64,000 nt of DNA, from assembly GCF_008919445.1 (NCBI RefSeq), contig NZ_VSLG01000002.1, positions 310,001-374,000 of the forward strand. The letters run 5' to 3'. Source of the DNA: Serinicoccus kebangsaanensis. Its GTDB lineage: Bacteria; Actinomycetota; Actinomycetes; Actinomycetales; Dermatophilaceae. The notes beneath the pieces are model-generated. The model made no database searches. It saw only the letters and a program-made list of their open reading frames with translations, and was not told the DNA's origin. A program made the translations under genes and the position numbers. This document shows, piece by piece, positions 1 to 64,000 of the stretch; position 1 is the stretch's first letter; each line of letters begins with the position of its first letter.

Positions 1-582
1 GGTGCCACCCGCTATGACGTCTCTGCGGGGGTCGCCGCGTCCTACTCCCCGGGCGGCTCGGTCCTCTACGTCGCGACCGGGGACAACTTCCCCGACGCGC
101 TCGCGATCGGCGCGCTGGCCGGTGACCAGGGCGCGCCGGTGCTGCTCACGCCGCAGGGAGGGCTGCACCCGGCGGTGGAGAGCGAGATCGCCCGGCTGAA
201 CCCGGGCCGGATCGTCGTGGTGGGTGGCTCGGCCGCCGTGTCGAACACCGTCCTCACCCAGCTGCGACGGCATACCGCCGGGTCGGTCACCCGCATCTCC
301 GGCCCGAACAGGTATGCCACCGCCTCGCGCATCGCCCAGCGCTTCGACCCCGACCCCGCCCGGGTCTACGTCGCCACCGGCGAGAACTTCCCGGACGCGC
401 TCGTCGGTGCGGCGCGCGGCGGAAGCCAGGGGGTGCCGGTGGTCCTGACCCCGCAGGCGCAGCTGTCCCGCGAGGGGCGCTACGCCCTGCGCGCGCTCGA
501 GGCCCGCCGGGGCGTGCTGCTCGGCGGGTGGGCCGCGATCAGCTCGGTGGCCATGGACCAGGTCGGCGCGCACGTCGGGTGA
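1..582 (+). CDS. cell wall-binding repeat 2 (CWB2) protein, 5' end missing
   Basis: The reading frame is open from the first base, so only the C-terminal 193 residues are present. It contains CWB2-type repeats (Pfam PF04122). Seen directly are GATRYDVSA near residue 1, YVATGDNFPDALAIGALAG, VVVGGSAAVS, then a second unit with RISGPNRYATASRIAQ and YVATGENFPDAL. This GxxRYxTA / ATGxNFPDAL alternation is characteristic of the family, which anchors secreted proteins to anionic wall polymers in Gram-positives. It ends 14 bp before the next gene and could share its transcript. Catalytic or other domains upstream of the window cannot be judged. Confidence 0.9.
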   Translation, partial: GATRYDVSAGVAASYSPGGSVLYVATGDNFPDALAIGALAGDQGAPVLLTPQGGLHPAVESEIARLNPGRIVVVGGSAAVSNTVLTQLRRHTAGSVTRISGPNRYATASRIAQRFDPDPARVYVATGENFPDALVGAARGGSQGVPVVLTPQAQLSREGRYALRALEARRGVLLGGWAAISSVAMDQVGAHVG

Positions 583-596
583 CGGAGGAGACCAGC

Positions 597-1319
597 ATGG
601 AGACGACACATCGGCTGCTGTCCGGCGAGACGGTGCGGATCGAGGTGCCGGACGCCGCCGGGCTGCCGAGCGGGACCTCGCTGGGCGTGCTCGCGCTCGA
701 GGGGGCCGGCCAGCTCGAGGTCACCTCCGGGCTGGAGGCGGACCTCGCCTTCTACCTCGAGGTCACCGGGACCAGGCTGGAGCGTGAGGTGAGCCTGCGG
801 GACGGCCGGACCCTGCGCTACGGCCGCTTCGGCGGCGACCCGGAGCAGGGCTTCGGCTGGGCCGTCGCGGTCGACGCCCACCAGCTCTACGGCTTCACCG
901 TGCCCGTCATGGGCATCGAGGAGCTGACCGGCTATCTCGCCGACGTCGACGTCCAGGGGGATCGGCTCGGCCCGGTGCTGACGCCCTCCGGTCGGGTCGG
1001 CTGGTCCGACTACCGCACGCAGACGGTGGCGCAGGTGGTGGAGCTGGCGGGCACCTCGCCCGGAGGCGGGGACGGCACCGGTCAGCTGGGCTATCTGCTC
1101 GACATCCGGCGGGCCCGGACCGGCCAGCTGCAACCGGGGCAGTCCGCGGGGACGCGGGTGCGAGGGGGACTGCTGTCGCGGTCCTCGGACGCCGAGCGGC
1201 ACCCGTATGCCGTGCTGGAGAACGCGGACTTCGTCACCTACGGCATGCCCGGCAACGAGGAGATCGTCGACGCCGTGATCACCTCGATGTCGGAGACCGT
1301 CGTGGAGCTGGGCCGATGA
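597..1319 (+). CDS. unknown protein, first gene of a MauE/MauD-like operon
   Basis: 240 residues, family not recognised. The ATG at 597 follows a GGAGG at 584-588. The protein is soluble in appearance, with no signal peptide, no membrane segment and no cysteine. It is rich in beta-forming stretches (DLAFYLEVTG, FGWAVAVDAHQLYGFTV) and has a Gly-rich loop near residues 160-170. Its stop overlaps the start of the MauE-like gene (ATGA), so it is translationally coupled to a thiol-redox membrane protein. A role in maturing or using the downstream Cys-rich exported protein is only suggested by context. It is too short to be the beta-propeller heavy chain of methylamine dehydrogenase. Confidence 0.75.
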   Translation: METTHRLLSGETVRIEVPDAAGLPSGTSLGVLALEGAGQLEVTSGLEADLAFYLEVTGTRLEREVSLRDGRTLRYGRFGGDPEQGFGWAVAVDAHQLYGFTVPVMGIEELTGYLADVDVQGDRLGPVLTPSGRVGWSDYRTQTVAQVVELAGTSPGGGDGTGQLGYLLDIRRARTGQLQPGQSAGTRVRGGLLSRSSDAERHPYAVLENADFVTYGMPGNEEIVDAVITSMSETVVELGR

Positions 1320-1894
1320 GCCTGCTCGGCAGCGCCGCCGGACTCGCGGTGGGCCTGGTGCTGCTCGCCGCGGGCAGCGCCCACCTGCGGCGACCGCAGG
1401 AGACCGTCCGCGCCCTGCGGGCGCACACCCTGCTGCCGTCCGCCCTGGCCCGACCTGTCGCGCTGGGCCTGGGGCCGGTGGAGGTCGCGCTGGGGGTCGG
1501 TCTGCTGGCGGCGGGGGCCGGGGCGCTGGGGGCCGGTCCGGCCCGCCTGCTCGCCCTCGGAGCCGCCCTGCTGTGCTCCGCCTTCACCGGATACCTGTGG
1601 GCCGTCCAGCGCCGCGTGGCCGGGACCGGGGCCGAGGTGCCCTGCGGCTGCGGCCTGGGCACGACGCCGGTGACCCACTGGGCCGTGCTGCGGGCCGGGG
1701 TGCTGACCCTGCTCGCGCTAGTGGTGCTCGTCGCGGCCCCCGCCGGGTGGCAGGCCGAGCCGGGCGCGCCCGTGTGGGCCCAGGTCTGCGTGGCCGGCTG
1801 CGCCGGACTGGCGCTGGCGGTGGCCACCGCGGCCCTGCCGGCCGCTCGCGCCGTGCCCGCCGGCCTGACCACGGTGGGCCAGGTGGCCCGATGA
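1316..1894 (+). CDS. MauE/DoxX-like redox membrane protein
   Basis: 192 residues with about four hydrophobic segments (roughly 5-20, 48-68, 75-98 and 122-142) and a CGCG cysteine pair in a loop near residue 110 (EVPCGCGLGTTPVTHWAVLR). This is the layout of the MauE/DoxX family of redox-associated membrane proteins. MauE, with MauD, is needed for correct disulfide formation in the methylamine dehydrogenase small subunit. It overlaps both neighbours by 4 bp (ATGA). The MauD-like gene directly downstream repeats the mauE-mauD pairing, so a role in passing oxidising equivalents to exported thiols is likely. The actual substrate is inferred, not shown. Confidence 0.8.
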   Translation: MSLLGSAAGLAVGLVLLAAGSAHLRRPQETVRALRAHTLLPSALARPVALGLGPVEVALGVGLLAAGAGALGAGPARLLALGAALLCSAFTGYLWAVQRRVAGTGAEVPCGCGLGTTPVTHWAVLRAGVLTLLALVVLVAAPAGWQAEPGAPVWAQVCVAGCAGLALAVATAALPAARAVPAGLTTVGQVAR

Positions 1895-2466
1895 GCTTCA
1901 CCGCCTCGGCGCTGGTCCTCGCCTTCGTCGCGATCGCCCTGCTCGCCCTCGGCCTGGCCGGGCTGCTGCGCCAGGTCAGCCTGCTCACCCGCCAGCTGGA
2001 GGGCGGGCAGACCGCCCGTGCCCGGACCTCCGGGACGTCAGGAGCGCGCACGACGCAGGAGCTCGTCGGCTTCCGCGTCCCGGACGACCTCGCCGGGCAG
2101 CTGCTCGACGGCGGGAGCGGGCATACCGTCCTCGCGTTCGTCTCACCCGGGTGCAGCTCGTGCTCCCTGACCCTGCGCGGACTGGCCGCCGACCCCGCGG
2201 TCCGCGACGGGACCCTCGCGCTGACCCTGGTGTCCGCCGGGTCCTGCGAGCCGGGGCTGGCCGACGCGACCGGTGCGGGCCGCCTCACCTGCGTGCCGCA
2301 GGGACGCGCCCTCATGGACCGGCTCGCGGTGCCCGCGACGCCCTACCTCGCGATGCTCGACGCGCGCGCCACGCTGCAGGCCGCGCTGCTCCCCGACGAG
2401 GACACCGACCTGGCCGGGTGGCTCCGCCAGGCACGCACCCCACTGCCGATGCGACAGGAGCGCTGA
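1891..2466 (+). CDS. MauD/TlpA-like membrane-anchored thioredoxin-fold protein
   Basis: 191 residues. An N-terminal membrane anchor (residues 5-28, ALVLAFVAIALLALGLAGLL) precedes a thioredoxin-like domain with the active-site motif SPGCSSCSL near residue 88, a CxxC arrangement. A cis-Pro-type segment (VPATPYLAMLD) lies near residue 150. Topology predicts the domain outside the cell. MauD homologues act with MauE as disulfide oxidants or isomerases for MauA. The gene overlaps the MauE-like gene by 4 bp and lies 3 bp before the Cys-rich Tat substrate, so the three probably work together. Two further cysteines (SCEPG and LTCVPQ) could form a structural disulfide. Confidence 0.82.
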   Translation: MSFTASALVLAFVAIALLALGLAGLLRQVSLLTRQLEGGQTARARTSGTSGARTTQELVGFRVPDDLAGQLLDGGSGHTVLAFVSPGCSSCSLTLRGLAADPAVRDGTLALTLVSAGSCEPGLADATGAGRLTCVPQGRALMDRLAVPATPYLAMLDARATLQAALLPDEDTDLAGWLRQARTPLPMRQER

Positions 2467-3786: not shown

Positions 3787-4851
3787 ATGGCGCGTCCCCA
3801 CATCGCCGCCCTGATCGAGGACTCGGTCCGGCGCCGGATGGACTCCCGGCTGCGTCGGCGCGGGTGGCACGAGCGCGTCTTCGGGTATACCGGCTACGGC
3901 ACCCCCACCCATGGCCGCGTCTTCGCCCGCGTGCTGCTGTCCCGGCACGAGCCGGAGGAGGCCCGCACCGCGCTCACCCACGCCCAGGACTCCCTGCTGG
4001 ACATCGCCCAGCGCGGGTGGCGCCTGTTCCTCACCGCACCGGCCGTCGACGTGCCGGTGCGGGTGCGCCTGGGCGAGGCGGAGCTCACGACGCGCACCGA
4101 CCGGGGCGGCTACGTCGACGTCGAGGTGAGCGGCCACGGCCTCGCACCGGGCTGGCAGGAGGCATACCTGGAGATCAGCAACGGCGACTCGCTGACCGTC
4201 TCGGTGCTTGTCGTCGACCCGGACGTCGCCGTCGGCCTGGTCAGCGACATCGACGACACGGTCATGGTCACGCACCTGCCCAGGATCCTCATCGCCGGGT
4301 GGAACACCTTCGTGCGCTCCGAGCAGGTCCGCCAGCCGGTGGCCGGGATCAACTCCATGTATCGCGCGCTGCTGGCCGAGACGCCGGGCATGCCCGTGTT
4401 CTACCTCTCGACGGGCGCGTGGAACACGGCTCCCGCGCTGACCCGCTTCCTCCGGCGGCACGACTTCCCGATGGGGCCGATGCTGCTCACCGACTGGGGG
4501 CCGACGAACAGCGGCTGGTTCCGCTCCGGCCAGGAGCACAAGGAGGAGGAGCTGCGGCGGCTGCGGGACGACTTCCCGGGGATGCGGTGGATCCTCGTCG
4601 GCGACGACGGCCAGCACGACCCGGTGATCTACGGCCAGTTCGCCGAGGAGCACCCGGAGGCGGTGGAGGCGATCTGCCTGCGCGAGCTCACCCCGGCGGA
4701 GCAGGTGCTCTCCAGCGGTCTGCCGGTGCCGACCGACGAGCTGCTCGGCAAGCGGGTGCAGGTGCCGATGCTCAAGGCGGCCAACGGTTTCGGCCTGCAC
4801 CACCTGCTGGTGGGCGCCCGGTCGCGTGACGGGGGGAGCGCCGGTGCCTGA
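3787..4851 (+). CDS. App1-family phosphatidate phosphatase (DUF2183)
   Basis: 354 residues. The catalytic HAD-like signature of App1 is visible around residue 155 (GLVSDIDDTVMVTHLP, a DxDxT motif), with a downstream FYLSTGAWN and the conserved LTDWGPTNSGWF and WILVGDDGQHDP stretches. This is the usual domain order of bacterial App1/DUF2183 proteins. Yeast App1 dephosphorylates phosphatidic acid, and in bacteria lipid phosphatase activity is assumed. ATG at 3787 is preferred. An in-frame GTG at 3778 would add three residues. Its end overlaps the next start by 8 bp. Confidence 0.9.
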   Translation: MARPHIAALIEDSVRRRMDSRLRRRGWHERVFGYTGYGTPTHGRVFARVLLSRHEPEEARTALTHAQDSLLDIAQRGWRLFLTAPAVDVPVRVRLGEAELTTRTDRGGYVDVEVSGHGLAPGWQEAYLEISNGDSLTVSVLVVDPDVAVGLVSDIDDTVMVTHLPRILIAGWNTFVRSEQVRQPVAGINSMYRALLAETPGMPVFYLSTGAWNTAPALTRFLRRHDFPMGPMLLTDWGPTNSGWFRSGQEHKEEELRRLRDDFPGMRWILVGDDGQHDPVIYGQFAEEHPEAVEAICLRELTPAEQVLSSGLPVPTDELLGKRVQVPMLKAANGFGLHHLLVGARSRDGGSAGA

Positions 4852-5704
4852 GCTGCCCGAGGTGCAGGCCCTCACCGACTTCCTCGCCGACCGGCTCGCG
4901 GGGCGGGTGGTCACCGATGTCGAGCTGGGGTCGATCGCGGTGCTGAAGACCTTCAACCCGCCGCCGGACGCCCTGGTCGGCGCACCGGTGGACGGCGTGG
5001 GCCGGCACGGCAAGTTCGTCGACATCGACGTGGACGGGACGCACCTGGTCTTCCACCTGGCCCGCGCCGGGTGGCTGCGGTGGTACGACGAGGTGCCGGG
5101 CACGCAGGTCCGGCCGGGCAGGAGCCCGATCGCCCTGCGGGTGCGGGTGGATGACGGTGCCGGCTTCGACCTCACCGAGGCCGGGACCAAGAAGGGCCTG
5201 GCGGCCTATGTCGTGACCGACCCCGAGCAGGTGCCCGGCATCGCCTCGCTCGGCCCGGACCCGTTGGCGGACGACTTCGACGAGGCGGCGTTCGCGGCGC
5301 TGCTCGAGGGCAGACGCACCCAGATCAAGGGGCTGCTGCGGGACCAGTCGGTGATCGCCGGCGTCGGCAACGCCTACTCCGACGAGATCCTGCACGCCGC
5401 CCGGCTCTCCCCCTTCGCCCTCGCCGCCGGGCTGACATCCGAGCAGGTGAGCACGTTGTATGCCGCGCTCCGGACCACGCTGGAGGCGGCGGTCCTGGCC
5501 GCCGAGGGCAAGCCGGCCGCCCAGCTCAAGGACGCCAAGCGGGCCGGGATGAACGTCCATGGCCGCACCGGGCAGGCCTGCCCCGTCTGCGGCGACACCG
5601 TGCTCGAGGTGTCCTTCGCCGACTCCTCGTTGCAGTACTGCCCCACCTGCCAGACCGGGGGCAAGCCGCTGGCGGACCGGCGGATGTCCCGCCTGCTGCG
5701 CTGA
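4844..5704 (+). CDS. Fpg/Nei family DNA glycosylase
   Basis: 286 residues from a GTG at 4844, chosen because the family must expose an N-terminal proline nucleophile: the protein begins (M)PELPEVQ. A GGGGGAG at 4832-4838 serves as ribosome site. A conserved Lys-containing loop (GRHGKFVDIDV) lies near residue 55, and the H2TH-like region contains GVGNAYSDEILHAARLSPF. A C-terminal zinc finger (CPVCGDTV ... CPTCQTGG) is followed by arginines. The enzyme excises oxidised bases and cleaves the abasic site. The stretch AGMNVHGRTGQACPVCG is common in a second actinobacterial Fpg paralogue, so substrate preference may differ from the main MutM. Confidence 0.93.
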   Translation: MPELPEVQALTDFLADRLAGRVVTDVELGSIAVLKTFNPPPDALVGAPVDGVGRHGKFVDIDVDGTHLVFHLARAGWLRWYDEVPGTQVRPGRSPIALRVRVDDGAGFDLTEAGTKKGLAAYVVTDPEQVPGIASLGPDPLADDFDEAAFAALLEGRRTQIKGLLRDQSVIAGVGNAYSDEILHAARLSPFALAAGLTSEQVSTLYAALRTTLEAAVLAAEGKPAAQLKDAKRAGMNVHGRTGQACPVCGDTVLEVSFADSSLQYCPTCQTGGKPLADRRMSRLLR

Positions 5705-5729: not shown

Positions 5730-6557
5730 TCAGTCGTCGACCGGGAGGGTGAAGACCTGGCCGTGCCAGCCGAAGTCCCGCGCCGCCTCGACGTTCGCCA
5801 CGCGGTCGTCGGTGAACCGGACCTCCGCGCGACCCACGGTGCGACCGAGGCGACGCTCGATCTCGGCGTGCGCGACGGCATACGCCTCGGGCGCGGGCTT
5901 GGCGAACCCCAGGTCGTGCGCGTTGAGCAGCATCGGGGCCAGGTGCCCCAGGCCGATCTGGGCCAGCTCGTCCGGCACCCGGTCGGTGCCGTTGGTGAAG
6001 ACGTAGGTCGGGATGCCCGCCGCGGTCAGGTCGTCGACGAGCGCGACGGTGCGGTGGATGGGGGCGCCGCGGTCGGCGGACCAGCGCTCCATCACGGTCG
6101 ACACCAGGGTGTCGGTATGCCCGAGCTCCAGCAGGTGGGCGCGCATCGCGTCGATCCACTCGGCATACGTCCCGCGGCCGGTCACCATCGCCGCCGCCTG
6201 CGGTAGGGCGAAGGCGATCTCGGGCAGCCCCATCGGCTCCAGCCCGAGCTCGCGCTCGCTGCGGGAGCGCTGCCCGTCGGTGCCGAAGTCCCGGAGCACC
6301 CCGTCGAGGTCGAGCACCGCCACCCCGGCCCGTCGCAGGAAGGCCGCGAGCCGCCACGGGCGCTCCGGCACGGGCTTGGCGGCCACCACGTCGGCGACCG
6401 GGACCCGCGTCTCGCCGGAGCGGGTGCGCACGACGACCTCGGTCTCCGTGCGCTCGACCAGCTGACCGAGGGTGTCGGTCGCCCGGTCACCCCCCTCGAT
6501 GAGGTGGCGCACCACGACGCGGGCGCCCAGCGGAAGTCTGTCGGTGAGGTCGGGCAC
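5730..6557 (-). CDS. HAD-family hydrolase with N-terminal SH3-like domain
   Basis: 275 residues from a GTG at 6557. The N-terminal 65 residues (VRHLIEGGDRATDTLGQLVERT ... VPVADVVAAKPVPERP) resemble the SH3-like module found at the start of Rv0428c-type acetyltransferases. The rest is a HAD hydrolase: motif I VAVLDLDGVLRDFG, motif II VFTNGTD, motif III Lys in GFAKPAPEAY, motif IV FTDDRVANVEAA. It follows the rhodanese gene by 11 bp and is probably co-transcribed. The phosphorylated substrate is unknown. The fusion of this N-terminal module to a HAD rather than a GNAT domain is unusual. Confidence 0.85.
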   Translation of the reverse strand: MPDLTDRLPLGARVVVRHLIEGGDRATDTLGQLVERTETEVVVRTRSGETRVPVADVVAAKPVPERPWRLAAFLRRAGVAVLDLDGVLRDFGTDGQRSRSERELGLEPMGLPEIAFALPQAAAMVTGRGTYAEWIDAMRAHLLELGHTDTLVSTVMERWSADRGAPIHRTVALVDDLTAAGIPTYVFTNGTDRVPDELAQIGLGHLAPMLLNAHDLGFAKPAPEAYAVAHAEIERRLGRTVGRAEVRFTDDRVANVEAARDFGWHGQVFTLPVDD

Positions 6558-7017: not shown

Positions 7018-8226
7018 GTGGATCCGATCAAGAACCCGTATGCCCCGGGCGCCGGCCAGCGCCCGCCCGAGCTCGCCGGCCGCGACGAGCAGCTCGACCG
7101 TTTCCGGGTGGTGCTGGAGCGGATCGCGCACGGGCGCCCCGAGCGGTCGATGGTGCTGACCGGGCTGCGGGGAGTCGGCAAGACGGTGCTGCTCAACGCG
7201 CTGCGGGGGACAGCGGTGCGTGCGCGCTGGGGGACGGGGAAGTACGAGGCGCGGCCGGAGCAGGGCATGCGGCGCCCGATGGCGGCCGCGCTGCACGTGG
7301 CGGTGCGCGAGCTGGGGCACCCGCAGGGCGACGAGGTCGACCACGTGCTCGGCGTGATCAAGGCGTTCGCGCAGAAGGACCAGCCGGGGGCGAAGCTGCG
7401 GGACCGGTGGAACCCGGGCATCGACGTCGCCGCGGTCACCGGGCGGGCCGACTCGGGCGACATCGAGATCGACCTGGTCGAGCTGCTCACCGACGTCGGC
7501 GGGCTGGCCGCGGACGTCGGCAAGGGGGTGGCGATCTTCATCGACGAGATGCAGGACCTGCAGCCGGATGACGTCTCGGCGATCTGCGCGGCCTGTCACG
7601 AGCTGAGCCAGTCCGCGCTGCCGGTGATCGTCGTCGGCGCCGGTCTGCCGCACCTGCCGGCCGTGCTGTCGGCCAGCAAGTCCTACTCCGAGCGGCTGTT
7701 CCGCTACACCCGGATCGACCGGCTGTCGCGGGAGCAGGCCGAGCGCGCGCTGCAGCTGCCGGCGGAGGACGAGGACGCCGCCTGGTCGCAGGAGGCGCTG
7801 ACGGCCATGTATGCCGCGACCGGCGGCTACCCGTACTTCCTCCAGGCCTACGGCAAGGAGGTGTGGGACCTGGCGCCGGAGTCGCCGATCGGCGCCGACG
7901 ACGTCCGGGTCGCCGGGCCGGAGGCGGAGGCCGAGCTGGCGGTCGGGTTCTTCGGGTCGCGCTACGAGCGGGCGACGCCGGGGGAGCGGGAGTACCTCCG
8001 GGCGATGGCCGACCTCGCCGCCGAGCGGGCCGACGCGGGGGAGGAGCAGGACGAGATCGAGTCGGTGGCGACGTCCGACATCGCCGCCCACCTGGGCCGC
8101 AAGCCCCAGTCCCTCTCGCCGGCGCGGGACGCGCTGCTCAAGAAGGGCCTCATCTACTCCGGCGAGCGGGGCCGGATCGCCTTCACCGTGCCCCACTTCG
8201 GGAGATACCTGCGCGAGCACACCTGA
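7018..8226 (+). CDS. AAA/STAND-type ATPase with C-terminal winged helix
   Basis: 402 residues from GTG 7018 (MDPIKNPYAPGAGQRPPELAGRDEQL). Walker A is GLRGVGKTVLL (about residue 48) and Walker B is VAIFIDEMQDLQP (about residue 170). An ORC/Cdc6-like arrangement continues with VIVVGAGLPHLP (sensor 1) and a C-terminal winged-helix-like segment (ATSDIAAHLGRKPQSLSPARDALLKKGLIY). It stands alone between divergent and convergent neighbours. Such proteins are widespread in actinobacteria and their role is not established. Nucleotide hydrolysis coupled to DNA or protein binding is inferred. No Shine-Dalgarno is seen, so the start may be leaderless. Confidence 0.8.
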   Translation: MDPIKNPYAPGAGQRPPELAGRDEQLDRFRVVLERIAHGRPERSMVLTGLRGVGKTVLLNALRGTAVRARWGTGKYEARPEQGMRRPMAAALHVAVRELGHPQGDEVDHVLGVIKAFAQKDQPGAKLRDRWNPGIDVAAVTGRADSGDIEIDLVELLTDVGGLAADVGKGVAIFIDEMQDLQPDDVSAICAACHELSQSALPVIVVGAGLPHLPAVLSASKSYSERLFRYTRIDRLSREQAERALQLPAEDEDAAWSQEALTAMYAATGGYPYFLQAYGKEVWDLAPESPIGADDVRVAGPEAEAELAVGFFGSRYERATPGEREYLRAMADLAAERADAGEEQDEIESVATSDIAAHLGRKPQSLSPARDALLKKGLIYSGERGRIAFTVPHFGRYLREHT

Positions 8227-8365: not shown

Positions 8366-9475
8366 TCACTCGAGATCGACGCGCAGCTCTCGGCCGAGGG
8401 CGGCACCCATCCGCTGGACCTCGTCCCTGATCGCCGTGACCGGCGCTCGTCCCTCCGCGAGCCAGGTGACGGTGACGTCGTCTCCCGTGCGCGCCCAGGT
8501 TCCCGACACCACGCCACCGGCCACGACCGGGTGGGCCTTGCGGGTCATCCACTCGCGCAGCTGCGGCGGGGTGACCCGCACGTCCTTGGTGCTCACCCCC
8601 ATGACCCACTGGTCGTGCCCGGGCAGCAGCCGCACGCTCCCTGTCGGCCGCGCCGCCCGGAACGCCTCCAGGTCATCCGCGGCGACGTAGGCCTCCACGC
8701 CCTCGATCTCGACGGTGGCCAGCTCGTCGGCGAGGCCGGCGAGCCACCGGTCGAGCCGCCTGCGGCCGGCGCTGAGCCCCTCGCCGAACCAGTAGTCGAC
8801 GTGCGCGCGGGTCACCGGGCCGTAGGTGCGGACATAGGCCAGCACCGCCCGAGGCCCTGCATCCTCCAGGTCGGGCACCCCGGCCCACCGCGGATTGCTC
8901 TCCAGGCTCTGCACCGTGCGCCGCCCGTCCTTCCCCGGGCCGAGGCTGAGGTCGCCCTGCCACGACAGCGGCTTGATCAGCGTGCCCGCACCGTCGTCGA
9001 AGACGGCCCGGAGGTGGCGGTATGCCCGGTGCCGGGCCAGCTCCTCCCCGAGCTCCGGCACGGTGAGCGGGCCGCCGCGCAGGGCCTCCCGCACCGCGGC
9101 TCGGAAGTCCGGCCACTCCTGCGCCTCGAGCCGGTAGTGCTCCACCCAGCTGCGCAGCTCCCACTGCCGCCCCGCGCACCGGACCGACAGGTAGAGTCCT
9201 GCGTCCTCCGGGGTCAGGTAGTGCAACGAGCCGCGGTAGGCGAAGGCCACGACCACCTCACCGGAGGCGTGGGCACGGGCCAGGTCCCCAGCCTGTCCAT
9301 GGGCCTGCCGCGCGGTGATCGCCGAGTCGGCGAGCGACTCGTCCATCGCGAGGACGGCCCCCAGCCTGCGCACCACATCGGTTGCCGAGATGTCGCCCCT
9401 CGGCTCAAGCAGGTGCTGCCTCATCCGCCACGACAGGGCCGACGTCCAGGTCACCGAGGCTGGTCGTCCACCCAT
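8366..9475 (-). CDS. winged-helix DNA-binding / AlkZ-like glycosylase family protein
   Basis: 369 residues of the HTH_42 (PF06224) family. Characteristic stretches are RRLGAVLAMDESLADSAITARQ near the start, AFAYRGSLHYLTPEDAGLYL, a tandem winged-helix region (GGPLTVPELGEELARH) and LLPGHDQWVMGVSTKD toward the end. The family includes AlkZ, which unhooks DNA crosslinks in Streptomyces, and many members of unknown substrate. The whole length is present. It is monocistronic: 139 bp separate it from the convergent ATPase gene and 69 bp from the LGFP gene upstream. Confidence 0.85.
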   Translation of the reverse strand: MGGRPASVTWTSALSWRMRQHLLEPRGDISATDVVRRLGAVLAMDESLADSAITARQAHGQAGDLARAHASGEVVVAFAYRGSLHYLTPEDAGLYLSVRCAGRQWELRSWVEHYRLEAQEWPDFRAAVREALRGGPLTVPELGEELARHRAYRHLRAVFDDGAGTLIKPLSWQGDLSLGPGKDGRRTVQSLESNPRWAGVPDLEDAGPRAVLAYVRTYGPVTRAHVDYWFGEGLSAGRRRLDRWLAGLADELATVEIEGVEAYVAADDLEAFRAARPTGSVRLLPGHDQWVMGVSTKDVRVTPPQLREWMTRKAHPVVAGGVVSGTWARTGDDVTVTWLAEGRAPVTAIRDEVQRMGAALGRELRVDLE

Positions 9476-53223: not shown

Positions 53224-53585
53224 GACTGATCACCGCCAGCCGCCCGCCGGGGCCCCAGCGCCACCACGGCCAGCGAATCGGCGTCGTCGAGGATCTCGGA
53301 GAGGATCCACCAGGCCCGGCCCTCGGTCTCGGCGAACAGACCGGCGTCCTCCCACAGCAGCGCCACCTCCTGCCCGCCCCAGCTCTGGGCGAGGTCGCGG
53401 AGCGAGTCGACGAGGGCGTCCAGGTTCAGCGCCGCGGTCCGCGGCAGCCGGAGCGCCTGGGCGACCTGCGCCTGCATCTCGCGCAGACCCCCGCCGACCG
53501 GCGTGCTGACCTCGGCGACGGCATACCCCGCCTGGGCGAAGTGGGCCCGCGCGTCGTCCGCGCGCTCCGCGGCGAGGATGATCAC
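53220..53585 (-). CDS. barstar-family RNase inhibitor
   Basis: 121 residues from GTG 53585, overlapping the purB stop. LNLDALVDSLRDLAQSWGGQEVALLWEDAGLFAE is the barstar (PF01337) core, the helix-loop that plugs the barnase active site in the type protein. It is cytoplasmic, without a signal. It is coupled by overlap to the ribonuclease gene downstream, so inhibitor is made before enzyme, as expected for self-protection. Confidence 0.88.
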   Translation of the reverse strand: MIILAAERADDARAHFAQAGYAVAEVSTPVGGGLREMQAQVAQALRLPRTAALNLDALVDSLRDLAQSWGGQEVALLWEDAGLFAETEGRAWWILSEILDDADSLAVVALGPRRAAGGDQS

Positions 53586-55048: not shown

Positions 55049-55092
55049 ACCGGCATTGTGGCAGGCAGCGGGATAGACCCCTGCATCCCGGC

Positions 55093-56339: not shown

Positions 56340-59300
56340 CTAGCCGATGAGCGGCGCCGCCGCTCGGCCGTCCGCCGGGTATGCGGCGCACCCCACCGGC
56401 TGGGTGCGCCAGGTCCCGACTGGTGGCTGCCCGTGGCCGACCAGCACCACGGCGCGCTCCGCTCCCCACCGCTCCAGCAGGCCCCCGAGCGCCCGCTGGG
56501 CGGTGGCGTCGTCGAGGTGCGCGGTCGGCTCGTCGAGCAGCAGCAGCGGCCGGCCGGAGACGAGCGCCCGCGCGAGCGCCAGCCGGGCTCGCTCACCGCC
56601 GGAGAGCCCGGCCACGAGGGTGTCCAGGCCCTCGGGGAGGGTGGCGAGCCACGCACCCAGGTCCACCGCCTCCAGCGCCTCGACGAGCTCGGCGTCGCGG
56701 GGGCGCTCCCGCCGGGCCAGGGCGAGGTTGGCCCGCACCGACCCGGCGAAGGCGTGCGGCTCGTCGTCCACCAGCGCGACCAGCGACCGGACCTGCTCGA
56801 GCTGCACCTGCTGCACCGGTCGGGTCCGCCCGTCGCTGCCGGCTAGGCGGTAGGCCCCGCCCGTCGGGTCGAGGTGGCGTGCGAGGACCGCCAGCGCGGT
56901 GGACTTGCCCGCGCCGTTCGGCCCGGTCAGGTGGACGCGGTCTCCGGGCTCGACGGTGAGGTCCAGGGGGTGCAGGTCCGGAGGGGTGGGGGCGCCGGAC
57001 GAGGGATCCCACCGGGCGGACACGTGATGCAGCGCCGCGGACAGCGGGCCGGGCGGCAGCGGGGCCTCACCCGCAGCGTCCACCGCCGGGTCCTGCTGCA
57101 GCACCGCGGCGACCCGTCGGCCGGCCGCCCGCGCCCTGGCGCGTGCCCCGGCGATCTCGGGCAGGCCCACCCAGGTCTCGGCGAGCGCGACCGGCACGAG
57201 CGCGACGAGCGCGGCATAGGGGCTGCTCAGCCCACCCGTCGCCTGCGCCGACCACGCGGCGCCGGTGACCACGGCGATCGTGCTGGCGACGACCGCCCAG
57301 GCCACCGTCACACCCGCCGCGCGGGCCCGCGTCAGCCGGGCCTCGCAGCGCCGCTGGTGCGCCTCGAGAGCCGCGAGCCGTCCCAGCAGCCGCTCGTGAC
57401 CACCGTCGCGCCCCGTCACCGCCTGCACCGCGAGCAGGTCGGCGCACCAGGACGTCACCTGCTCCTGCACCCGTCCGAGGGCCACCACGGCCGCGTCCTG
57501 CGCGAGCCGCTCGACGGCATACCCGAGCACGGCGACCGCTGCCGCCAGCGTCCCACCGGCCGCGACGGCCAGGCCGGCGACCGGCAGGTGCCACGCCGCG
57601 ACGACCGAGCCCACCGCGGTGGCGACGACCGCCGACCACGCCGGCACGGTGAACCGCACCTGGTCGTCCACCACGTCGTCCAGGTCGCGGGCCATGGCCC
57701 CCAGGAGCGCGCCCTTGCTGCCCCGCCCCAGCCGCGCCGGGGTCAGCGGCACGAGCGCGGCGAAGACACCCGCGCGCCGCCGGGCCAGGTCCGCGAGCGC
57801 GACGTCGTGGCTGACGACGCGCTCGGCATACCGCAGCACCGGTCGGAAGATGCCGAAGGCCCGCACCCCGACGACCGCCACCAGCAGGGTCAGCACCACC
57901 GGCATCGTGGAGGCCTGCACGATGAGCCACCCCGAGGTGGCGGTGAGGGCGACGCCGCAGCTCACCGAGGCGCCGCCGAGCAGGCACGCCAGGGCCAGCC
58001 CGCCGCGGCGGCCACCCGGTCCGGCGGGCCGGGGGACCTGGTGCTGGTCGTCGCGGTCGGGGTGCGAGGACGGTGTGTCACATCCGTCGTCCTGGCGACC
58101 GATGTGACACACCGTTCCTGCACCACCGTCGAGGTCCCACCGCTGGTCGGCGAGCGCCATGAGGAGCGGGTCGTGGGTGACCACGACCACGCGGCGCTCG
58201 CGGGCCAGACCGAGCAGGACCTCGTGCACGAGCGGTATGCCGTCGGCGGCGACGGCGGCCGTCGGCTCGTCCAGCAGCAGCAGCGGCGCCGGCGACAGGA
58301 GGGCGCGGGCCAGGGCGAGCCGGGCACGTTGCCCGGCGGACAGACCCAGCCCGTCGTCCCCGAGCCGGGTGTCCAGGCCGTGCCGGTCGGCGAGGTGGGT
58401 CCACAGGCCGACCTGCTCCAGGGCCTGCTCCAGCTGGGCGTCGGTCGCGTCCGGGGCCGCCAGGGCAATGGTGTCGCGCACCGTGCCGGGCAGCAGCAGC
58501 GGACGTTGCGTGGCCAGGTGCGCCGGGGGTGCGTCGACCTGGCCGGACGCGGGCGTGCGCAGCCCGGCCAGCAGCTCGAGCACGGTCGTCTTGCCCGCGC
58601 CGCTGGGGCCGGTGAGGACGGTGAGACCGGGGCCCGCCGGGGTGCTCAGCGTCACCTCGGGCAGCGTCTGCGCCCGGCCGAGGTGGGCATACCGGACGCC
58701 GGTCAGGCCGATCGCCCCGTCCCCCCGTGCCGACGGACGTGCACCACGCGCCTCCCTCTCGCCCGTCGGGCCTGGATCGGACCGTCGTGCACGTCGGTCC
58801 GCACGCCCGGCGGGCCCCTGACCCCCTGTCCGGTCGGGTGAGGCGGCGGCTGGGGAGGTGAGGATGCCGTTGGCGGACAGCTCCTCGAGCACCTGCGCGC
58901 CGTCGGCGGCGTTGTGGAACTCGGCGCCGACCCGCCGGATCGGCCAGTACGCCTCGGGAGCCAGCAGGATCGCGGTGAGCCCGACGACGAGGTCCATGCC
59001 GCCGTGCGCCAGCCGCAGCCCCACCGCCACCGCGACCATCGCCACCGAGATGGTCGCCAGCAGCTCCAGGGCGGCCGTGGACAGGAAGGCGGTGCGCAGG
59101 GTGGCGACGCTCGCCCGACGGTGCCGCTCCCCGACCTCGCGCACCACGTCGACCTGGGCCCGCGCCCGGCCGTAGGCGACCAGCGTCGGCAGCCCGCGCA
59201 TCACGTCGAGGAAGTGCCCCGACAGCAGCTCCATCGCCCGCCACCGACGCCGGGTCTCGTCCCGCGTGTGCAGGCCGATGAGCGCCGCGAAGACGGGGAG

Positions 59301-59792
59301 CAGCGGCAGCGTCAGCACCACGACGAGCGCGCTCCACGGGTCCACGACCAGCAGCGCGACGAGCGCCAGCCCGGGCACCACGGCGGCAGTGACGAGCGCG
59401 GGCAGGTAGCGGGAGACATACGGCTCCAGCGCCACCACCCCGTCGCCCGCGCGGGTGATCGCCACCTCCGTCGTGGGCCGCTGCTCGACCGGGCGGGACA
59501 GCCACCGACGCAGCACCGCCTCCCGCACCACGGCCACCACCCGCAGGCCCGCCCACCGCGCCACGGCCTCACCCACGCCGGCGAGCACCCCGCGCAGCAC
59601 CAGCAGCCCCACCAGCGCCGTGAGGTATGCCGTGAGCTCGGTCCCGCGGGCGACCGCACCGACGACCAGCGCGAGCACCACGGCCTGGGCGATCGCGATC
59701 GCACCAGAGGCCACACCGACGAGGGACAGCGCGGCCACCGGACCGCGGGTGGCGGGCAGGGCCCGCAGCAGCGCAGGGTCGAAGGGTCGCAC
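56340..59792 (-). CDS. cydDC: fused CydDC-type thiol reductant ABC exporter
   Basis: 1150 residues from GTG 59792, 8 bp after the cydB stop. The CydD half has a six-helix domain, Walker A GPSGAGKTTVL and signature LSAGQRARLAL. The CydC half has a second helix domain (GVALTATSGWLIVQAS), Walker A GPNGAGKSTAL and signature LSGGERARLAL. CydDC exports cysteine and glutathione and is needed to assemble cytochrome bd. The halves are fused in many actinobacteria. Residues about 560-573 in the linker are encoded by a palindromic repeat (58072-58113) that elsewhere is intergenic. Confidence 0.94.
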   Translation of the reverse strand: MRPFDPALLRALPATRGPVAALSLVGVASGAIAIAQAVVLALVVGAVARGTELTAYLTALVGLLVLRGVLAGVGEAVARWAGLRVVAVVREAVLRRWLSRPVEQRPTTEVAITRAGDGVVALEPYVSRYLPALVTAAVVPGLALVALLVVDPWSALVVVLTLPLLPVFAALIGLHTRDETRRRWRAMELLSGHFLDVMRGLPTLVAYGRARAQVDVVREVGERHRRASVATLRTAFLSTAALELLATISVAMVAVAVGLRLAHGGMDLVVGLTAILLAPEAYWPIRRVGAEFHNAADGAQVLEELSANGILTSPAAASPDRTGGQGPAGRADRRARRSDPGPTGEREARGARPSARGDGAIGLTGVRYAHLGRAQTLPEVTLSTPAGPGLTVLTGPSGAGKTTVLELLAGLRTPASGQVDAPPAHLATQRPLLLPGTVRDTIALAAPDATDAQLEQALEQVGLWTHLADRHGLDTRLGDDGLGLSAGQRARLALARALLSPAPLLLLDEPTAAVAADGIPLVHEVLLGLARERRVVVVTHDPLLMALADQRWDLDGGAGTVCHIGRQDDGCDTPSSHPDRDDQHQVPRPAGPGGRRGGLALACLLGGASVSCGVALTATSGWLIVQASTMPVVLTLLVAVVGVRAFGIFRPVLRYAERVVSHDVALADLARRRAGVFAALVPLTPARLGRGSKGALLGAMARDLDDVVDDQVRFTVPAWSAVVATAVGSVVAAWHLPVAGLAVAAGGTLAAAVAVLGYAVERLAQDAAVVALGRVQEQVTSWCADLLAVQAVTGRDGGHERLLGRLAALEAHQRRCEARLTRARAAGVTVAWAVVASTIAVVTGAAWSAQATGGLSSPYAALVALVPVALAETWVGLPEIAGARARARAAGRRVAAVLQQDPAVDAAGEAPLPPGPLSAALHHVSARWDPSSGAPTPPDLHPLDLTVEPGDRVHLTGPNGAGKSTALAVLARHLDPTGGAYRLAGSDGRTRPVQQVQLEQVRSLVALVDDEPHAFAGSVRANLALARRERPRDAELVEALEAVDLGAWLATLPEGLDTLVAGLSGGERARLALARALVSGRPLLLLDEPTAHLDDATAQRALGGLLERWGAERAVVLVGHGQPPVGTWRTQPVGCAAYPADGRAAAPLIG
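58072..58113. repeat. palindromic element, copy 2, inside cydDC
   Basis: GGTGTGTCACATC (58072-58084) and GATGTGACACACC (58101-58113) are perfect complements, with an inner GTCG/CGAC stem and a 6-nt loop. It is 13 bp per arm, longer than copy 1 at 42270-42301. It is translated in frame as part of the CydD-CydC linker. Confidence 0.88.
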
Positions 59793-59800: not shown

Positions 59801-60838
59801 TCAGCGCCCCGGGCGCTGCGGCTCCACCGCGGCGTGGTGCACCTCGGTCGGGATGTGGTGCCCGGAGATCCGTCTGCGGAAGGTCCAGTAGCTCCACGCC
59901 GTGTAGAGGAGCATGACCGGCGTGAAGACGAGGGCCACCACGGTCATGATCCCCAGCGTCTTGGCGGTCGAGCTGGCGTTGGTGGCGGTCAACGACCAGT
60001 CCGGGTCGAGGCTTGAGGGCATGACGTCGGGGAAGAGCGCGAGGAACAGCGACGTGGTGGCCAGCGCGATGGCGACGAAGGTCCCGGAGAAGGCCCAGCC
60101 CTCACGGCCGCGGGCGGCGAGCGCGAGCCCGCCGAGGAGCGCCGCGGCCGCCAGCCCCGCCGCCCACCAGGACAGCGGCGTGCCCGTCCGTCCGTGCAGG
60201 AGCGTCAGCCAGGCCACCGCGAGGACCGCCGCCACGACCCCCAGGCGGAGCGCCAGGGCCCGGGCGTCGTGCCGCAGCGCCCCGTCCGTCTTGAGCGCGA
60301 CGAAGAGCGCGCCGTGGGTGAGGAAGAGGGCGAGCGTGGTCAGCCCGCCGAGCAGCGCGACGGGGCCGAGGAGGTTCCAGAAGCCACCGGCATACTCCAT
60401 CTGCGCGTCGATCGGGACGCCGCTCACGATGTTGCTGAAGGCGATGCCCCACAGCACGGCCGGGAGCAGGGAACCGGCGACGACCATCGCGTCCATCCGC
60501 GCGCGCCAGGCGGGCGAGTCGACCTTGCCGCGGTACTCCAGCCCCACGCCGCGCAGGATCAGCCCGACGAGGATGAGCAGCAGCGGCAGGTAGAAGCCGG
60601 AGAAGAGGGTGGCGTACCAGTGCGGGAAGGCGGCGAAGATCGCCCCGCCGGCGGTGAGCAGCCAGACCTCGTTGCCGTCCCAGAACGGTCCGATCGCCGA
60701 GAGCATCTGCCGCTTGCGCGTCTCGTCCTTCCCCAGCACCGGCAGCAGCATCCCGACGCCGTAGTCGAAGCCCTCCAGGCAGAAGTACCCGACCCAGAGG
60801 ACGGCGATGAGGACGAACCAGATCGTGGTGAGCTCCAT
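59801..60838 (-). CDS. cydB: cytochrome bd oxidase subunit II
   Basis: 345 residues with eight or nine hydrophobic helices. TTIWFVLIAVLWVGYFCLEGFDYGVGMLLPVLGKDE at the start, GPFWDGNEVWLLTAGGAIFAAFPHWYATLFSGFYLPLLLIL, and FRRRI near the end are family hallmarks. AGGAG precedes ATG 60838. It lies 16 bp after cydA in the same operon. It completes the quinol oxidase with CydA, and CydDC follows. Confidence 0.97.
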   Translation of the reverse strand: MELTTIWFVLIAVLWVGYFCLEGFDYGVGMLLPVLGKDETRKRQMLSAIGPFWDGNEVWLLTAGGAIFAAFPHWYATLFSGFYLPLLLILVGLILRGVGLEYRGKVDSPAWRARMDAMVVAGSLLPAVLWGIAFSNIVSGVPIDAQMEYAGGFWNLLGPVALLGGLTTLALFLTHGALFVALKTDGALRHDARALALRLGVVAAVLAVAWLTLLHGRTGTPLSWWAAGLAAAALLGGLALAARGREGWAFSGTFVAIALATTSLFLALFPDVMPSSLDPDWSLTATNASSTAKTLGIMTVVALVFTPVMLLYTAWSYWTFRRRISGHHIPTEVHHAAVEPQRPGR

Positions 60839-60854: not shown

Positions 60855-62333
60855 TCAGTAGGTGAAGACGAAGGCGTCGTCGTCGTCCCGGTCGGCGGGG
60901 TCGTAGGACGCGTCCTCGGGGACCTGCTCGGCACCGGCCCGGCCGTAGCGCAGCAGCAGCTTGACCTCGACCACGGCGAGCGCGCCGTAGAGCAGGGTGA
61001 AGACCACCATCGAGGTCAGCACCTCACCGGTCGTCGTCCCGGGGGAGACCCCCGTCCGGGTGGTCATCAGCCCCATCACCAGCCACGGCTGGCGGCCCAT
61101 CTCGGTGAAGATCCAGCCGAAGGAGTTGGCGAGCAGCGGCATGAAGAGCACGCTCCCCGCGGCCCAGCCCCAGAGCCGGTGCCGCAGCACCGGCCGGTCC
61201 TCCTCGCGGTCGTCGCGCGCCGTCGCCGAGCCGCGCAGCCGCCAGAGCACCGCGAGCGCGACCCCCATCGCGGCCAGACCGAGGCCGATCATCAGCCGGA
61301 AGCTCCAGTAGGTCACCGGGATCACCGGGCGGTAGTCCTCGGCCGCGGTGAGCTCGGCACCGGCATACGTCAGTTCGTAGCGCTCCTGGATGTGGTCGAT
61401 GCCCTCGACGGCGCCGTCGAGCGAGCCGGTCGCGAGGTAGGACAGCAGCTTGGGGACGGTGAGCGCCCACACCTCCTCGCGACCGTCGAGGGTGCCCACG
61501 GTGATGATCGAGAAGGGTGCGCCCTCGCCCTCGGGGACGTCCTCGTAGAGCCCCTCGGCCGCCGCCATCTTCATCGGCTGCACCTCGGTCATGATCTTGC
61601 CCTGGAGGTCCCCGGAGATCGCCGAGCCGGCGCCCGCCAGGAGCACGACGACCGCGCCGAGCCGGGCGGCCCGGCGATACATCGGTGCGTCGGTGCGCGG
61701 CGTGCCCGGTCGCCACAGGTGCCACAGCGCGAAGGCGAGCACGAAGGCGCCGCCGGTCATGTATGCCGCGGTGATGACGTGCGGGAAGGTCACCAGCTGC
61801 ACCGGGTTGGTGAGGACGGCGAGGAAGTCGGTGAGCTCGGCACGCCCGGTCTCGGGGTTGACGCGGTAGCCGACCGGGTTCTGCATGAAGGAGTTGGCGG
61901 CCAGGATGAAGTAGGAGGACAGCAGGGTGCCGATGTGCACCAGCCAGATCGCGGCCGCGTGCAGCTTCTCCGGGATGCGTCCCCACCCGAAGATCCACAG
62001 GCCCAGGAAGGTCGACTCGAGGAAGAACGCGAGCAGCGCCTCGATCGCCAGCGGCGCACCGAAGATGTCGCCGACGAAGCGGGAGTAGTCCGACCAGTTC
62101 ATCCCGAACTGGAACTCCTGCACGATGCCGGTGACCAGCCCGAGCGCGAAGTTGATCGTGAAGAGCTTGCCGAAGAACTTCGTCAGCCGTAGCCACCGGG
62201 TGTCGCGGGTGCGCATCCACTGCGTCTGCATGAGCGCGACGAGGAGGCTGAGCCCGATCGTGACGGGGACGAAGAAGTAGTGGTAGACGGTGGTGATGCC
62301 GAACTGCCAGCGGGCGAGATCCAGGGCCTCCAC
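60855..62333 (-). CDS. cydA: cytochrome bd oxidase subunit I
   Basis: 492 residues, nine helices. The haem b595 ligand His is in TTVYHYFFVPVTIGLS and the b558 His in VTFPHVITAAYMTGGAF. The Met ligand lies in the middle. The quinol loop is of the short type, with conserved Lys and Glu in EVQPMKMAAAEGLYED. The GRQPW motif is seen in TEMGRQPWLVMGLM. It oxidises quinol and reduces oxygen to water, important at low oxygen. First gene of cydA-cydB-cydDC. Its AT-rich promoter lies at 62361-62400. Confidence 0.97.
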   Translation of the reverse strand: MEALDLARWQFGITTVYHYFFVPVTIGLSLLVALMQTQWMRTRDTRWLRLTKFFGKLFTINFALGLVTGIVQEFQFGMNWSDYSRFVGDIFGAPLAIEALLAFFLESTFLGLWIFGWGRIPEKLHAAAIWLVHIGTLLSSYFILAANSFMQNPVGYRVNPETGRAELTDFLAVLTNPVQLVTFPHVITAAYMTGGAFVLAFALWHLWRPGTPRTDAPMYRRAARLGAVVVLLAGAGSAISGDLQGKIMTEVQPMKMAAAEGLYEDVPEGEGAPFSIITVGTLDGREEVWALTVPKLLSYLATGSLDGAVEGIDHIQERYELTYAGAELTAAEDYRPVIPVTYWSFRLMIGLGLAAMGVALAVLWRLRGSATARDDREEDRPVLRHRLWGWAAGSVLFMPLLANSFGWIFTEMGRQPWLVMGLMTTRTGVSPGTTTGEVLTSMVVFTLLYGALAVVEVKLLLRYGRAGAEQVPEDASYDPADRDDDDAFVFTY

Positions 62334-63287: not shown

Positions 63288-63674
63288 TCAGGCGCGGCGG
63301 CGCTCGACCTCGGCCAGGGCGGCGCGCAGGTCGTCGAGCTCGCCCGGGCTGGCGTCGTCGAGGAAGTGCAGCATGGCCGCCGTGCGGTCGGCCTTCACCG
63401 TGTCCAGCGCGGAGCGCAGGGCCGTGGCCGCGAGCTCCTCACGGCTGGCCGCCGCGGAGTAGCGCCAGGCCCGCCCGTCCCGGGTGCGGTCGGCGATCCC
63501 CTTCTTGGCCAACCGGTCCAGCACCGTCATCACCGTGGTGTAGGCGAGCTCCTTGTGCTGCCGCTGCTCCAGCTGGTCGATGACGTCCCGGACCGACAGG
63601 TCGGGGCCCTCGGACCAGAGGATCTCCATGACGACGCGCTCCAGGTCGCCCAGGGAGGTGCTGCGTAGCGGCAT
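63288..63674 (-). CDS. BlaI/MecI/CopY-family repressor
   Basis: 128 residues. The winged helix is STSLGDLERVVMEILWSEGPDLSVRDVIDQLEQRQHKELAYTTVMTVLDRLAKKGIADRTRDGRAWRYS, with the usual YTTVMT recognition helix. The C-terminal dimerisation helices are SREELAATALRSALDTVK and LDDLRAALAEVE. It pairs with the M56 protease in a two-gene operon. In mycobacteria the BlaI regulon extends beyond beta-lactamase to respiration genes, which fits the adjacent cyd operon (inference). TAGCCT on the minus strand just before the ATG suggests a leaderless start. Confidence 0.93.
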   Translation of the reverse strand: MPLRSTSLGDLERVVMEILWSEGPDLSVRDVIDQLEQRQHKELAYTTVMTVLDRLAKKGIADRTRDGRAWRYSAAASREELAATALRSALDTVKADRTAAMLHFLDDASPGELDDLRAALAEVERRRA

Positions 63675-63711
63675 ACCCGCAAGGCTACGCCCTGCCCCCG
63701 TCGGCCCACCC

Positions 63712-63860
63712 GACCGGCCGCACGGTCTGCGTCGACCGCCCGCACGCTTTGCGTCGACCGACCGCGCGGTTTGCGTCGACCGACCGCGCGGTTTGCGTCG
63801 ACCGGCCGCACGCTTTGCGTCGACCGGCCGCACGCTTTGCGTCGACCGGCCGCGCGGTAT
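63712..63860. repeat. 22-bp repeat array, direct units only (site 3)
   Basis: About seven direct units of the type CGACCGGCCGCACGCTTTGC plus GT, period 22 bp, between the blaI-like gene start and the galE stop. The last unit merges with GGTATGCC next to the stop codon (TCA 63865-63867). Same family as the arrays at 27121 and 32924, but without an inverted half. Confidence 0.88.
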
Positions 63861-63864
63861 GCCG

Positions 63865-64000
63865 TCAGTCCGGGTAGCCCTGCGGGTTCGCCTGCTGCCA
63901 CCGCCAGGTGTCCGCGCACATGTCCTCCACCGACCTCGTCGCGCGCCAGCCGAGCTCGGACTCGGCGAGCGCGGGGTCGGCATATGAGCTGGCGATGTCG
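63865..64000 (-). CDS. galE: UDP-glucose 4-epimerase, C-terminal fragment
   Basis: Only the last 44 or so residues lie in the window (the gene continues beyond position 64000). SYADPALAESELGWRATRSVEDMCADTWRWQQANPQGYPD is the typical GalE C-terminus (ADPxxAxxELGWxAxRxLexMcxDxWxWQxxNPxGY). GalE interconverts UDP-glucose and UDP-galactose with NAD. It ends in the flank of a 22-bp repeat array. Confidence 0.88.
   Translation of the reverse strand, partial: DIASSYADPALAESELGWRATRSVEDMCADTWRWQQANPQGYPD

Follow-up and report, generated by a model that had tools for sequence, protein, structure and literature searches.

The window, the whole 64-kb stretch of DNA analysed here (GC 73.0%), carries one short word many times over on both strands. 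Exact counting gives 18 copies of GGCATACC and 19 of GGTATGCC, 37 octamers in all, and 59 copies of the core heptamer (28 GGCATAC and 31 GTATGCC). Relative to base composition, the octamers are in excess by factors of 17.9 (GGCATACC) and 18.5 (GGTATGCC), and the heptamers by factors of 10.0 (GGCATAC) and 11.1 (GTATGCC). The original prediction had put the octamers at about 19 GGTATGCC and 18 GGCATACC and the heptamers at about 59; these figures proved exact, and all seven positions it cited are octamer sites. By GC-frame gene calls, 50 of the 59 sites are coding. Besides the sites with rarer codons treated below, these comprise GGCATACC on the forward strand at 269..276, 4161..4168, 11005..11012, 17045..17052, 22563..22570, 36886..36893, 43041..43048, 57516..57523, 57825..57832 and 58686..58693, and GGTATGCC on the reverse strand at 311..318, 15552..15559, 22661..22668, 22796..22803, 25770..25777, 27098..27105, 32439..32446, 40600..40607, 43480..43487 and 46492..46499. 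Heptamers outside the octamers occur as GGCATAC on the forward strand at 5877..5883, 6162..6168, 12044..12050, 20511..20517, 28038..28044, 28287..28293, 45615..45621, 46034..46040, 60389..60395 and 61362..61368, and as GTATGCC on the reverse strand at 1205..1211, 5458..5464, 7038..7044, 7809..7815, 11158..11164, 13346..13352, 20412..20418, 32829..32835, 35731..35737, 40436..40442 and 61761..61767. The remaining sites lie outside script-called genes, a class that includes any gene the script missed: GGCATACC at 2120..2127, 37722..37729, 41327..41334, 53520..53527, 55044..55051 and 63670..63677 (forward), GGTATGCC at 17564..17571 and 63856..63863 (reverse), and a GTATGCC heptamer at 39201..39207 (reverse).

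The coding sites are distributed over the reading frames, with 29 read as NNG-TAT-GCC, 10 as NNG-GCA-TAC, five with CAT in frame, three with ATA in frame and three in the two remaining phases. In-frame CAT is found in GGTATGCC at 6114..6121, 26181..26188 and 48154..48161 (reverse) and in GGCATACC at 24573..24580 (forward). Apart from the three in-motif ATA codons, the 53 called genes of the window contain no ATA; the three lie in GGTATGCC at 32076..32083 (reverse, gene 30218-32314) and 58234..58241 (reverse, gene 56340-59897) and in GGCATACC at 46908..46915 (forward, gene 46374-47054). Rare ATA codons had been proposed at 41327 and 46908; the latter is indeed in frame, whereas the former is outside any called gene. 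The GCA codons proposed for the genes at 8366 and 56340 are both present, as GCA-TAC in GGTATGCC at 9019..9026 (reverse, gene 8366-9475) and 59624..59631 (reverse, gene 56340-59897). In a 484-kb sample, 81% of which is called coding by the GC-frame script, 279 coding copies were counted, where 60 synonymous shuffles gave 34, with a maximum of 46. The count is far above codon-aware expectation, and enrichment is seen in all six gene phases rather than confined to one. Moreover, 29 of 56 sampled ATA codons and 142 of 296 sampled TAT codons fall within the motif. Between genomes, tyrosine TAT is retained in 380 of 540 non-independent comparisons within the motif, whereas the proportions elsewhere are 23/65, 66/194 and 22/122; for the motif-poor G023 the corresponding figures are 0/14 within the motif and 0/12 outside it. 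The shuffles, TAT retention and the share of ATA and TAT codons within the motif support the proposal of frame-independent selection on the DNA itself, though biased transfer (drive) would look alike.

The genome that contains the window (G000, 3.5 Mb) holds 1,764 octamers (894 plus 870 of GGTATGCC) and only 10 copies of the reversed word (4 + 6). The predicted over-representation in both orientations is thus real, and the genome-wide excess is stronger than the prediction could demonstrate. Among words with at least 25 copies in 464 kb of G000, GGCATAC ranks first of the 7-mers, and words that include it rank first for k = 8 to 10, under Markov models of orders 2 and 3 (337 observed against 20.7 expected for GGCATAC at order 2); with an order-4 model the leading words still contain or overlap GGCATAC. 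A motif-rich pair of genomes carries 739 sites in 904 kb; motif-poor relatives with the same GC have 5 in 338 kb, a density about 1/55 as high. This motif-poor pool consists of 18 stretches and leaves out L154 (0 sites) and L155 (2 sites), whose inclusion would give 7 sites in about 378 kb, as well as the 20-kb stretch L213 of G023, which has 6 sites. An artefact of composition or codon usage was rejected on the basis of the Markov ranking, synonymous shuffling and this equal-GC comparison. The octamer itself is not the natural unit. What recurs is (C)GGCATAC(C), an asymmetric and degenerate word in which CATAC is fixed, GG is preferred before it and the C on each side varies with lineage. Its 5' end is tolerant, in that CG, GA, GT and TG preceding CATAC are enriched as well; clear tolerance for substitutions was not seen within CATAC.

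Around a closed genome, the two strands of the motif are used 201 and 187 times over 21 stretches, in agreement with the equal strand use reported for the window, and strand skew along the replichores, of the KOPS/FtsK type or otherwise, is absent. Close pairs are thinned: sites 7-100 bp apart number 0.53 of what a Poisson distribution gives, and 3 of 338 control heptamers are equally low. Overall spacing has a coefficient of variation of 1.04, with 151 of the 338 controls as low or lower. The word is scarce in inserted viruses and islands: five mobile inserts totalling 154.7 kb contain 5 octamers where 36.6 are expected.

A survey of 117 genomes found the motif in many relatives, patchily distributed within a single family and at background in 46 genomes from other families of the order. 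It is conserved between congeners. On a tree of 53 of the 71 family genomes plus two outgroups there are jumps between sister genera (G031 at 6/Mb vs G047 at 233/Mb; G058 at 6 vs G069 at 233). The flanks differ by genus around the fixed CATAC. In samples of 12-100 kb per genome (G000 and G007 excepted), the base 5' of GGCATAC is C at 31/31, 26/26, 27/27 and 30/30 sites in four other genera and at 242/366 in G000, and the base 3' is mixed in those four genera and C at 232/366 in G000. A replacement word of like strength was not seen in 49-60 kb each of the motif-poor G023, G031 and G067. The six heptamers of G023 lie in the single 20-kb stretch L213, with none in the remaining 58 kb.

Several other processes could place such a word on a chromosome. 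A nucleoid or chromosome-organising protein, or another DNA-processing factor, might bind it chromosome-wide, with selection keeping about one site per kilobase. The occurrence of the word throughout the genome, on both strands, inside and between called genes, and its conservation, fit such a factor; spaced binding would equally fit the thinning of very close sites, and independence from comEA/comEC would fit the absence of correlation with these genes described below. However, the jumps between G031 and G047 and between G058 and G069 are unexpected for a housekeeping factor, and neither lineage-specific flanks nor insert depletion is specifically predicted, such that we regard this explanation as unlikely. 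We also think it improbable that the word is a methyltransferase target maintained at high copy number. Cyanobacterial HIP1 may be such a case, and PMC4390886 ties its frequency to orphan methyltransferases. G000 does have two N6_Mtase matches and a single C5 gene, matched in two pieces, but none of four methyltransferase families searched in the 117 genomes (PF01555, PF02384, PF07669, PF00145) tracks the motif, which weakens the methylation alternative raised at the outset: G001 (817 octamers) and G025 (395) match none of the four, and G007 (2,180) has a single PF02384 match only. Moreover, the word is non-palindromic, GGCATAC being asymmetric, and neither GGTATACC nor GGCATGCC exceeds its count in motif-poor relatives (8 vs 11 and 34 vs 37). 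HIP1 is likewise a highly iterated octamer that varies between relatives, but it is palindromic and linked to orphan methyltransferases (PMC4390886).

A Chi-like recombination hotspot read by RecBCD or a similar nuclease would also be short, asymmetric and frequent, and RecC is present in 30 of 31 genomes of the genus. Chi is usually skewed along replichores, and the present word is not. RecC was not seen in the motif-rich G034 (1,284 octamers), G037 (938), G047 (841), G052 (812) and G033 (637), yet occurs in the motif-poor G036, G039, G043, G067 and G068. This distribution already excludes an account by RecC only, RecC being what the test covered; we consider a Chi-like role very improbable. 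Context-dependent mutation, such as deamination of GGCGTAC to GGCATAC, is hardly credible as the source of the word. GGCGTAC is indeed found at 0.34 of expectation (88 vs 262), but the motif excess (about 725 sites) is some four times this deficit, and selection or drive equally predicts the deficit because GGCGTAC is the synonymous TAC-GCC alternative. The enrichment extends to variants with different 5' bases, and mutation would not thin close pairs.

We lean, with modest confidence, towards the reading that (C)GGCATAC(C) serves self-recognition during natural transformation, much as the DUS do in Neisseriaceae and the USS in Pasteurellaceae. The competence machinery, a Flp/Tad pilus with ComEA/ComEC as in Micrococcus luteus, would have a DNA-binding component at the cell surface that binds the word; fragments with at least one copy would be preferentially taken up, and their repeated recombination would lead to accumulation on both strands and in all reading frames. 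Three things are inferred here: bearers can be transformed, they take up DNA with the word preferentially, and they possess a receptor for it. The likeness to Neisseria and Haemophilus that was originally proposed draws support from how dense the word is, from its strand symmetry and its depletion in acquired DNA, from flanks that differ by lineage and from the thinning of close pairs. Points against the uptake reading are the presence of comEA and comEC in motif-poor relatives too, the lack of a candidate receptor from the ComEA/ComEC columns, the scarcity of hairpin pairs, the near-equal density in and outside called coding DNA, and the confinement of the G023 heptamers to one stretch.

G000 carries competence genes of the Micrococcus luteus type, with comEA-comEC adjoining leuS and two Tad/Flp loci. 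The suggested search for comEA and comEC thus found both in G000, but they are not confined to motif bearers: comEC occurs in 109 of the 117 genomes, motif-poor ones among them, and both genes were detected, at the level of matches, in 20 of 20 motif-poor genomes sampled. A DUF4244 Flp pilin gene was rejected as discriminator, as 109 of the 117 genomes, including motif-poor ones, carry it. The CpaB-bearing Tad locus was rejected as driver, being missing from three of the richest genomes (G007, G011, G022). No ComEA/ComEC column tracks the motif clearly above the permutation level; the best, ComEA column 634 (W vs other residues), reaches the 95% level, and sister pairs show that it follows genus. 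A short comEC match in the motif-poor G023 is located where a contig of 8,504 bases ends and is therefore no evidence of breakage. The Tad-2 neighbourhoods were compared in 21 genomes with rough GC-frame gene calls. The known receptors of uptake words are type IVa minor pilins. Type IVa PilT was rejected as a pilus marker since G000 has no match over the cut-off, nor does any family member except G055, which leaves this receptor class without an evident place.

Sequence-biased DNA uptake is described in two families, Neisseriaceae and Pasteurellaceae, in PMC3630211 and PMC7811141. If the present word is an uptake signal, uptake bias would have evolved independently, on a different pilus, in a Gram-positive family, unlike the bearers of USS. 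Such a system would help to decide between drive and selection as the origin of uptake words, and the word, added to DNA, might render hard-to-manipulate actinobacteria transformable. If it is not, a conserved word with 1,764 octamers still needs a reader. Searches of the literature turned up neither this word nor any uptake word in Actinomycetota, and no record of transformation for 'Intrasporangiaceae'; among the matches listed for the bare motif string, none concerned a genomic signature. A wider joint reading, plausible although we stop short of calling it probable, is that self-DNA uptake signals extend beyond Neisseriaceae and Pasteurellaceae, with this word as the first case. Flp-pilus transformation in an Actinomycetota family would then be biased to (C)GGCATAC(C), its receptor would differ from the known type IVa minor pilins, dialects would restrict gene exchange among genera, and prophages and islands integrating into comEC and the Flp pilin gene might switch transformation off.

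In Neisseria, many inverted DUS pairs form terminator hairpins, whereas inverted pairs of the present word, whose uptake role is putative, are few at 60 bp or less (15 among 682 gaps), and two form near-perfect hairpins. The DUS of Neisseriaceae, as presented in PMC3630211, resemble it in being present thousands of times, in varying by lineage about a constant core and in being missing from some members of the family. The present word differs in being shorter and GC-rich, in belonging to Actinomycetota and in occurring in a genome without type IVa PilT over the cut-off. For transformation by Flp pili, PMC4322843 reports that both tad loci are needed in M. luteus, which G000 resembles in its comEA-comEC and two Tad/Flp loci; that paper mentions no uptake word, the phrase 'uptake sequence' having 0 occurrences in it. 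The USS of H. influenzae, according to PMC7811141, is spaced relatively evenly at about 1 kb and is rare in newly acquired DNA, and the present word is similar in its density of about one per kilobase, its scarcity in such DNA and its tolerant outer positions. The two words are unrelated, and while USS is described there as scarcer in coding DNA (PMC7811141), the present word is nearly equal in density within called coding DNA (0.71/kb) and outside it (0.80/kb).

The original prediction held that an octamer, GGTATGCC in one orientation and GGCATACC in the other, is strongly over-represented in the window, and its counts proved exact: 19 GGTATGCC, 18 GGCATACC and 59 copies of the heptamer GGCATAC/GTATGCC in 64 kb at 73.0% GC. 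Genome-wide in G000, the genome holding the window (3.50 Mb, 37 contigs), the octamer occurs 1,764 times, against 10 for the same word read backwards. When heptamers were ranked over 464 kb of G000, GGCATAC stood out most at every Markov order from 2 to 4; for k = 8 to 10, the top words contain it under orders 2 and 3, and contain or overlap it under order 4.

The abundance of this word, (C)GGCATAC(C), exceeds what coding content predicts, in keeping with selection or drive acting at the DNA level. Against 60 shuffles that held each gene's amino acids and codon usage fixed, 279 coding copies were seen where 34 were expected (shuffle maximum 46), with an excess in all six strand-phase classes. 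Within 350 sampled genes, the word accommodates 29 of 56 ATA codons and 142 of 296 TAT codons. Among orthologues of congeners, TAT inside the word was retained as TAT in 380/540 comparisons, versus 23/65, 66/194 and 22/122 in three other contexts, and in the motif-poor congener G023 in 0/14 inside the word and 0/12 outside; these comparisons share ancestry and sites, and thus illustrate rather than test.

The shape of the word was resolved by comparing two motif-rich genomes (904 kb) with motif-poor relatives (338 kb) of the same GC (0.724 to 0.726), which carry 739 and 5 heptamer sites, respectively. With the motif-poor relatives as reference, GG precedes CATAC 739 times against 13 expected, and other dinucleotides are also raised (CG 74 vs 13, GA 67 vs 8, GT 40 vs 8, TG 30 vs 0). 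No change within CATAC was clearly raised in this comparison, the biggest being GGCCTACC (84 vs 62). Directly outside the word the preferred base is C, which in G000 precedes GGCATAC at 242 of 366 sites and follows it at 232 of 366. C precedes every site in four other genomes (G033, 31/31; G034, 26/26; G047, 27/27; G069, 30/30), all with a mixed following base, and G follows all nine sites in G051. From their sequences, we read these flank variants as dialects of one core.

Placement of the word is neutral with respect to strand. In the closed genome G007, 201 forward and 187 reverse sites were counted over 21 stretches, with no dependence of orientation on replichore. Density is 0.71 per kb in called genes and 0.80 per kb outside. 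Pairs less than 100 bp apart occur at about half the Poisson frequency, a level reached by only 3 of 338 control heptamers, and for pairs within 300 bp 10 of the 338 are equally low; overall spacing evenness (CV) is ordinary beside the same controls.

Five inserts that interrupt comEC or the Flp pilin gene in congeners are poor in the word: their 154.7 kb hold 10 heptamers, against 35 in the 100.3 kb flanking them, and they contain 5 octamers where the host genomes predict 36.6. Two inserts of ~40 kb lie in comEC at the SGSNV-coding stretch (G002 C1:1161213-1201312, L143-L145; G018 C46:68542-108975, L146-L148), and in both a large serine recombinase of 485 aa is encoded where one end meets the host gene; the G002 insert also has portal, terminase, tape-measure and tail genes. 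Judged by gene content, both are prophage-like elements interrupting a competence gene. The DUF4244 Flp pilin gene is broken near residues 21-26 in four genomes, with inserts of ~13-38 kb in the three that are measurable (G006 C1:3800693-3838150; G008 C1:39670-52318; G014 C1:401018-425073; stretches L223-L229) and pieces on C745 and C412 in G064. Among the genes brought in by the G014 insert are those of a type I restriction-modification system and one for a Schlafen AlbA_2 protein.

Within the genus, 30 of 31 genomes hold 285 to 2,180 octamers and G023 holds 38; in other genera of the family, 23 of 40 hold 137 to 1,365 and 17 hold 6 to 85, counts that underestimate genera favouring G after the core. 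Other families of the order show 3 to 123 octamers versus 2 to 132 reversed words (46 genomes). The LeuRS encoded next to comEA-comEC in G000 has its best match in Serinicoccus chungangensis (87%), followed by Ornithinimicrobium. NCBI assigns Serinicoccus to Ornithinimicrobiaceae; in GTDB the family is Dermatophilaceae. In Nostocoides jenkinsii Ben 74, 22.8 kb of sequence contain 21 heptamers, and 22.9 kb from an uncultured Phycicoccus (L051) contain none. A tree built from LeuRS and ComEC for 55 genomes, of which 53 belong to the family and 48 contributed LeuRS, places rich G047 beside poor G031 and rich G069 beside poor G058, and its deep branch G041 is rich; an old signal repeatedly lost, or else transferred, is therefore the likeliest origin of this patchiness. 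G070/G034 and G043/G065 are further sister pairs of unequal motif density. All 6 heptamers in 78 kb sampled from G023 fall in one 20-kb stretch (L213, C79:1-20000), possibly foreign or mis-binned. Contig QEUR01000011.1 (L048), labelled Acidobacteria MAG ATN4, is probably mislabelled, given its Ornithinimicrobium-like LeuRS (78%) and 9 heptamers in 20.7 kb.

Taken together, the word's high copy number and asymmetric form, its equal use of both strands, its variation between lineages, its depletion in recently acquired DNA and the shortage of closely spaced copies make a DNA uptake signal the most likely reading by analogy, one we hold at slightly better than even confidence. These traits resemble those described for DUS and USS (PMC3630211, PMC7811141). 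The uptake reading remains unproven because no receptor or competence gene correlating with the word was found among the genomes compared, hairpin pairs are rare and no transformation record was found. On several runnable tests the word behaves like DUS, but it lacks two usual DUS features; with its uptake role putative, we keep it apart from DUS. Full-text searches, covering few subscription papers or preprints, returned no report of the word, nor of uptake words in Actinobacteria/Actinomycetota.

Other candidate readers are methyltransferases and RecC. Four methyltransferase families (PF01555, PF02384, PF07669, PF00145) were searched in 117 genomes; word-bearing G001 and G025 match none, and G007, richest in the word, has a single match (PF02384). 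RecC is missing from several motif-rich genomes, yet found in several motif-poor ones. As for the uptake signal, comEC and DUF4244 are each present in 109 of 117 genomes and so do not explain presence or absence of the word, for which a further specificity factor would have to account. In G000, comEC and comEA adjoin leuS, and of two Tad loci one has CpaB, while the other has DUF4244 and lies close to a gene for endonuclease III. Transformation of M. luteus reportedly requires both of its tad loci, with comEA/EC mutants assayed alongside (PMC4322843). The comEC of G015, matching only profile residues 1-110 (L149, C1:1045001-1065000), seems truncated, and this genome nonetheless keeps about 100 octamers per Mb.

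Within the window, a single 1,185-aa gene (56340-59897) matching CydD and then CydC is predicted to encode a fused thiol-reductant ABC exporter, and 47068-49284 a putative heavy-metal P-type ATPase of the copper type, which has a metal-binding domain at its N terminus.
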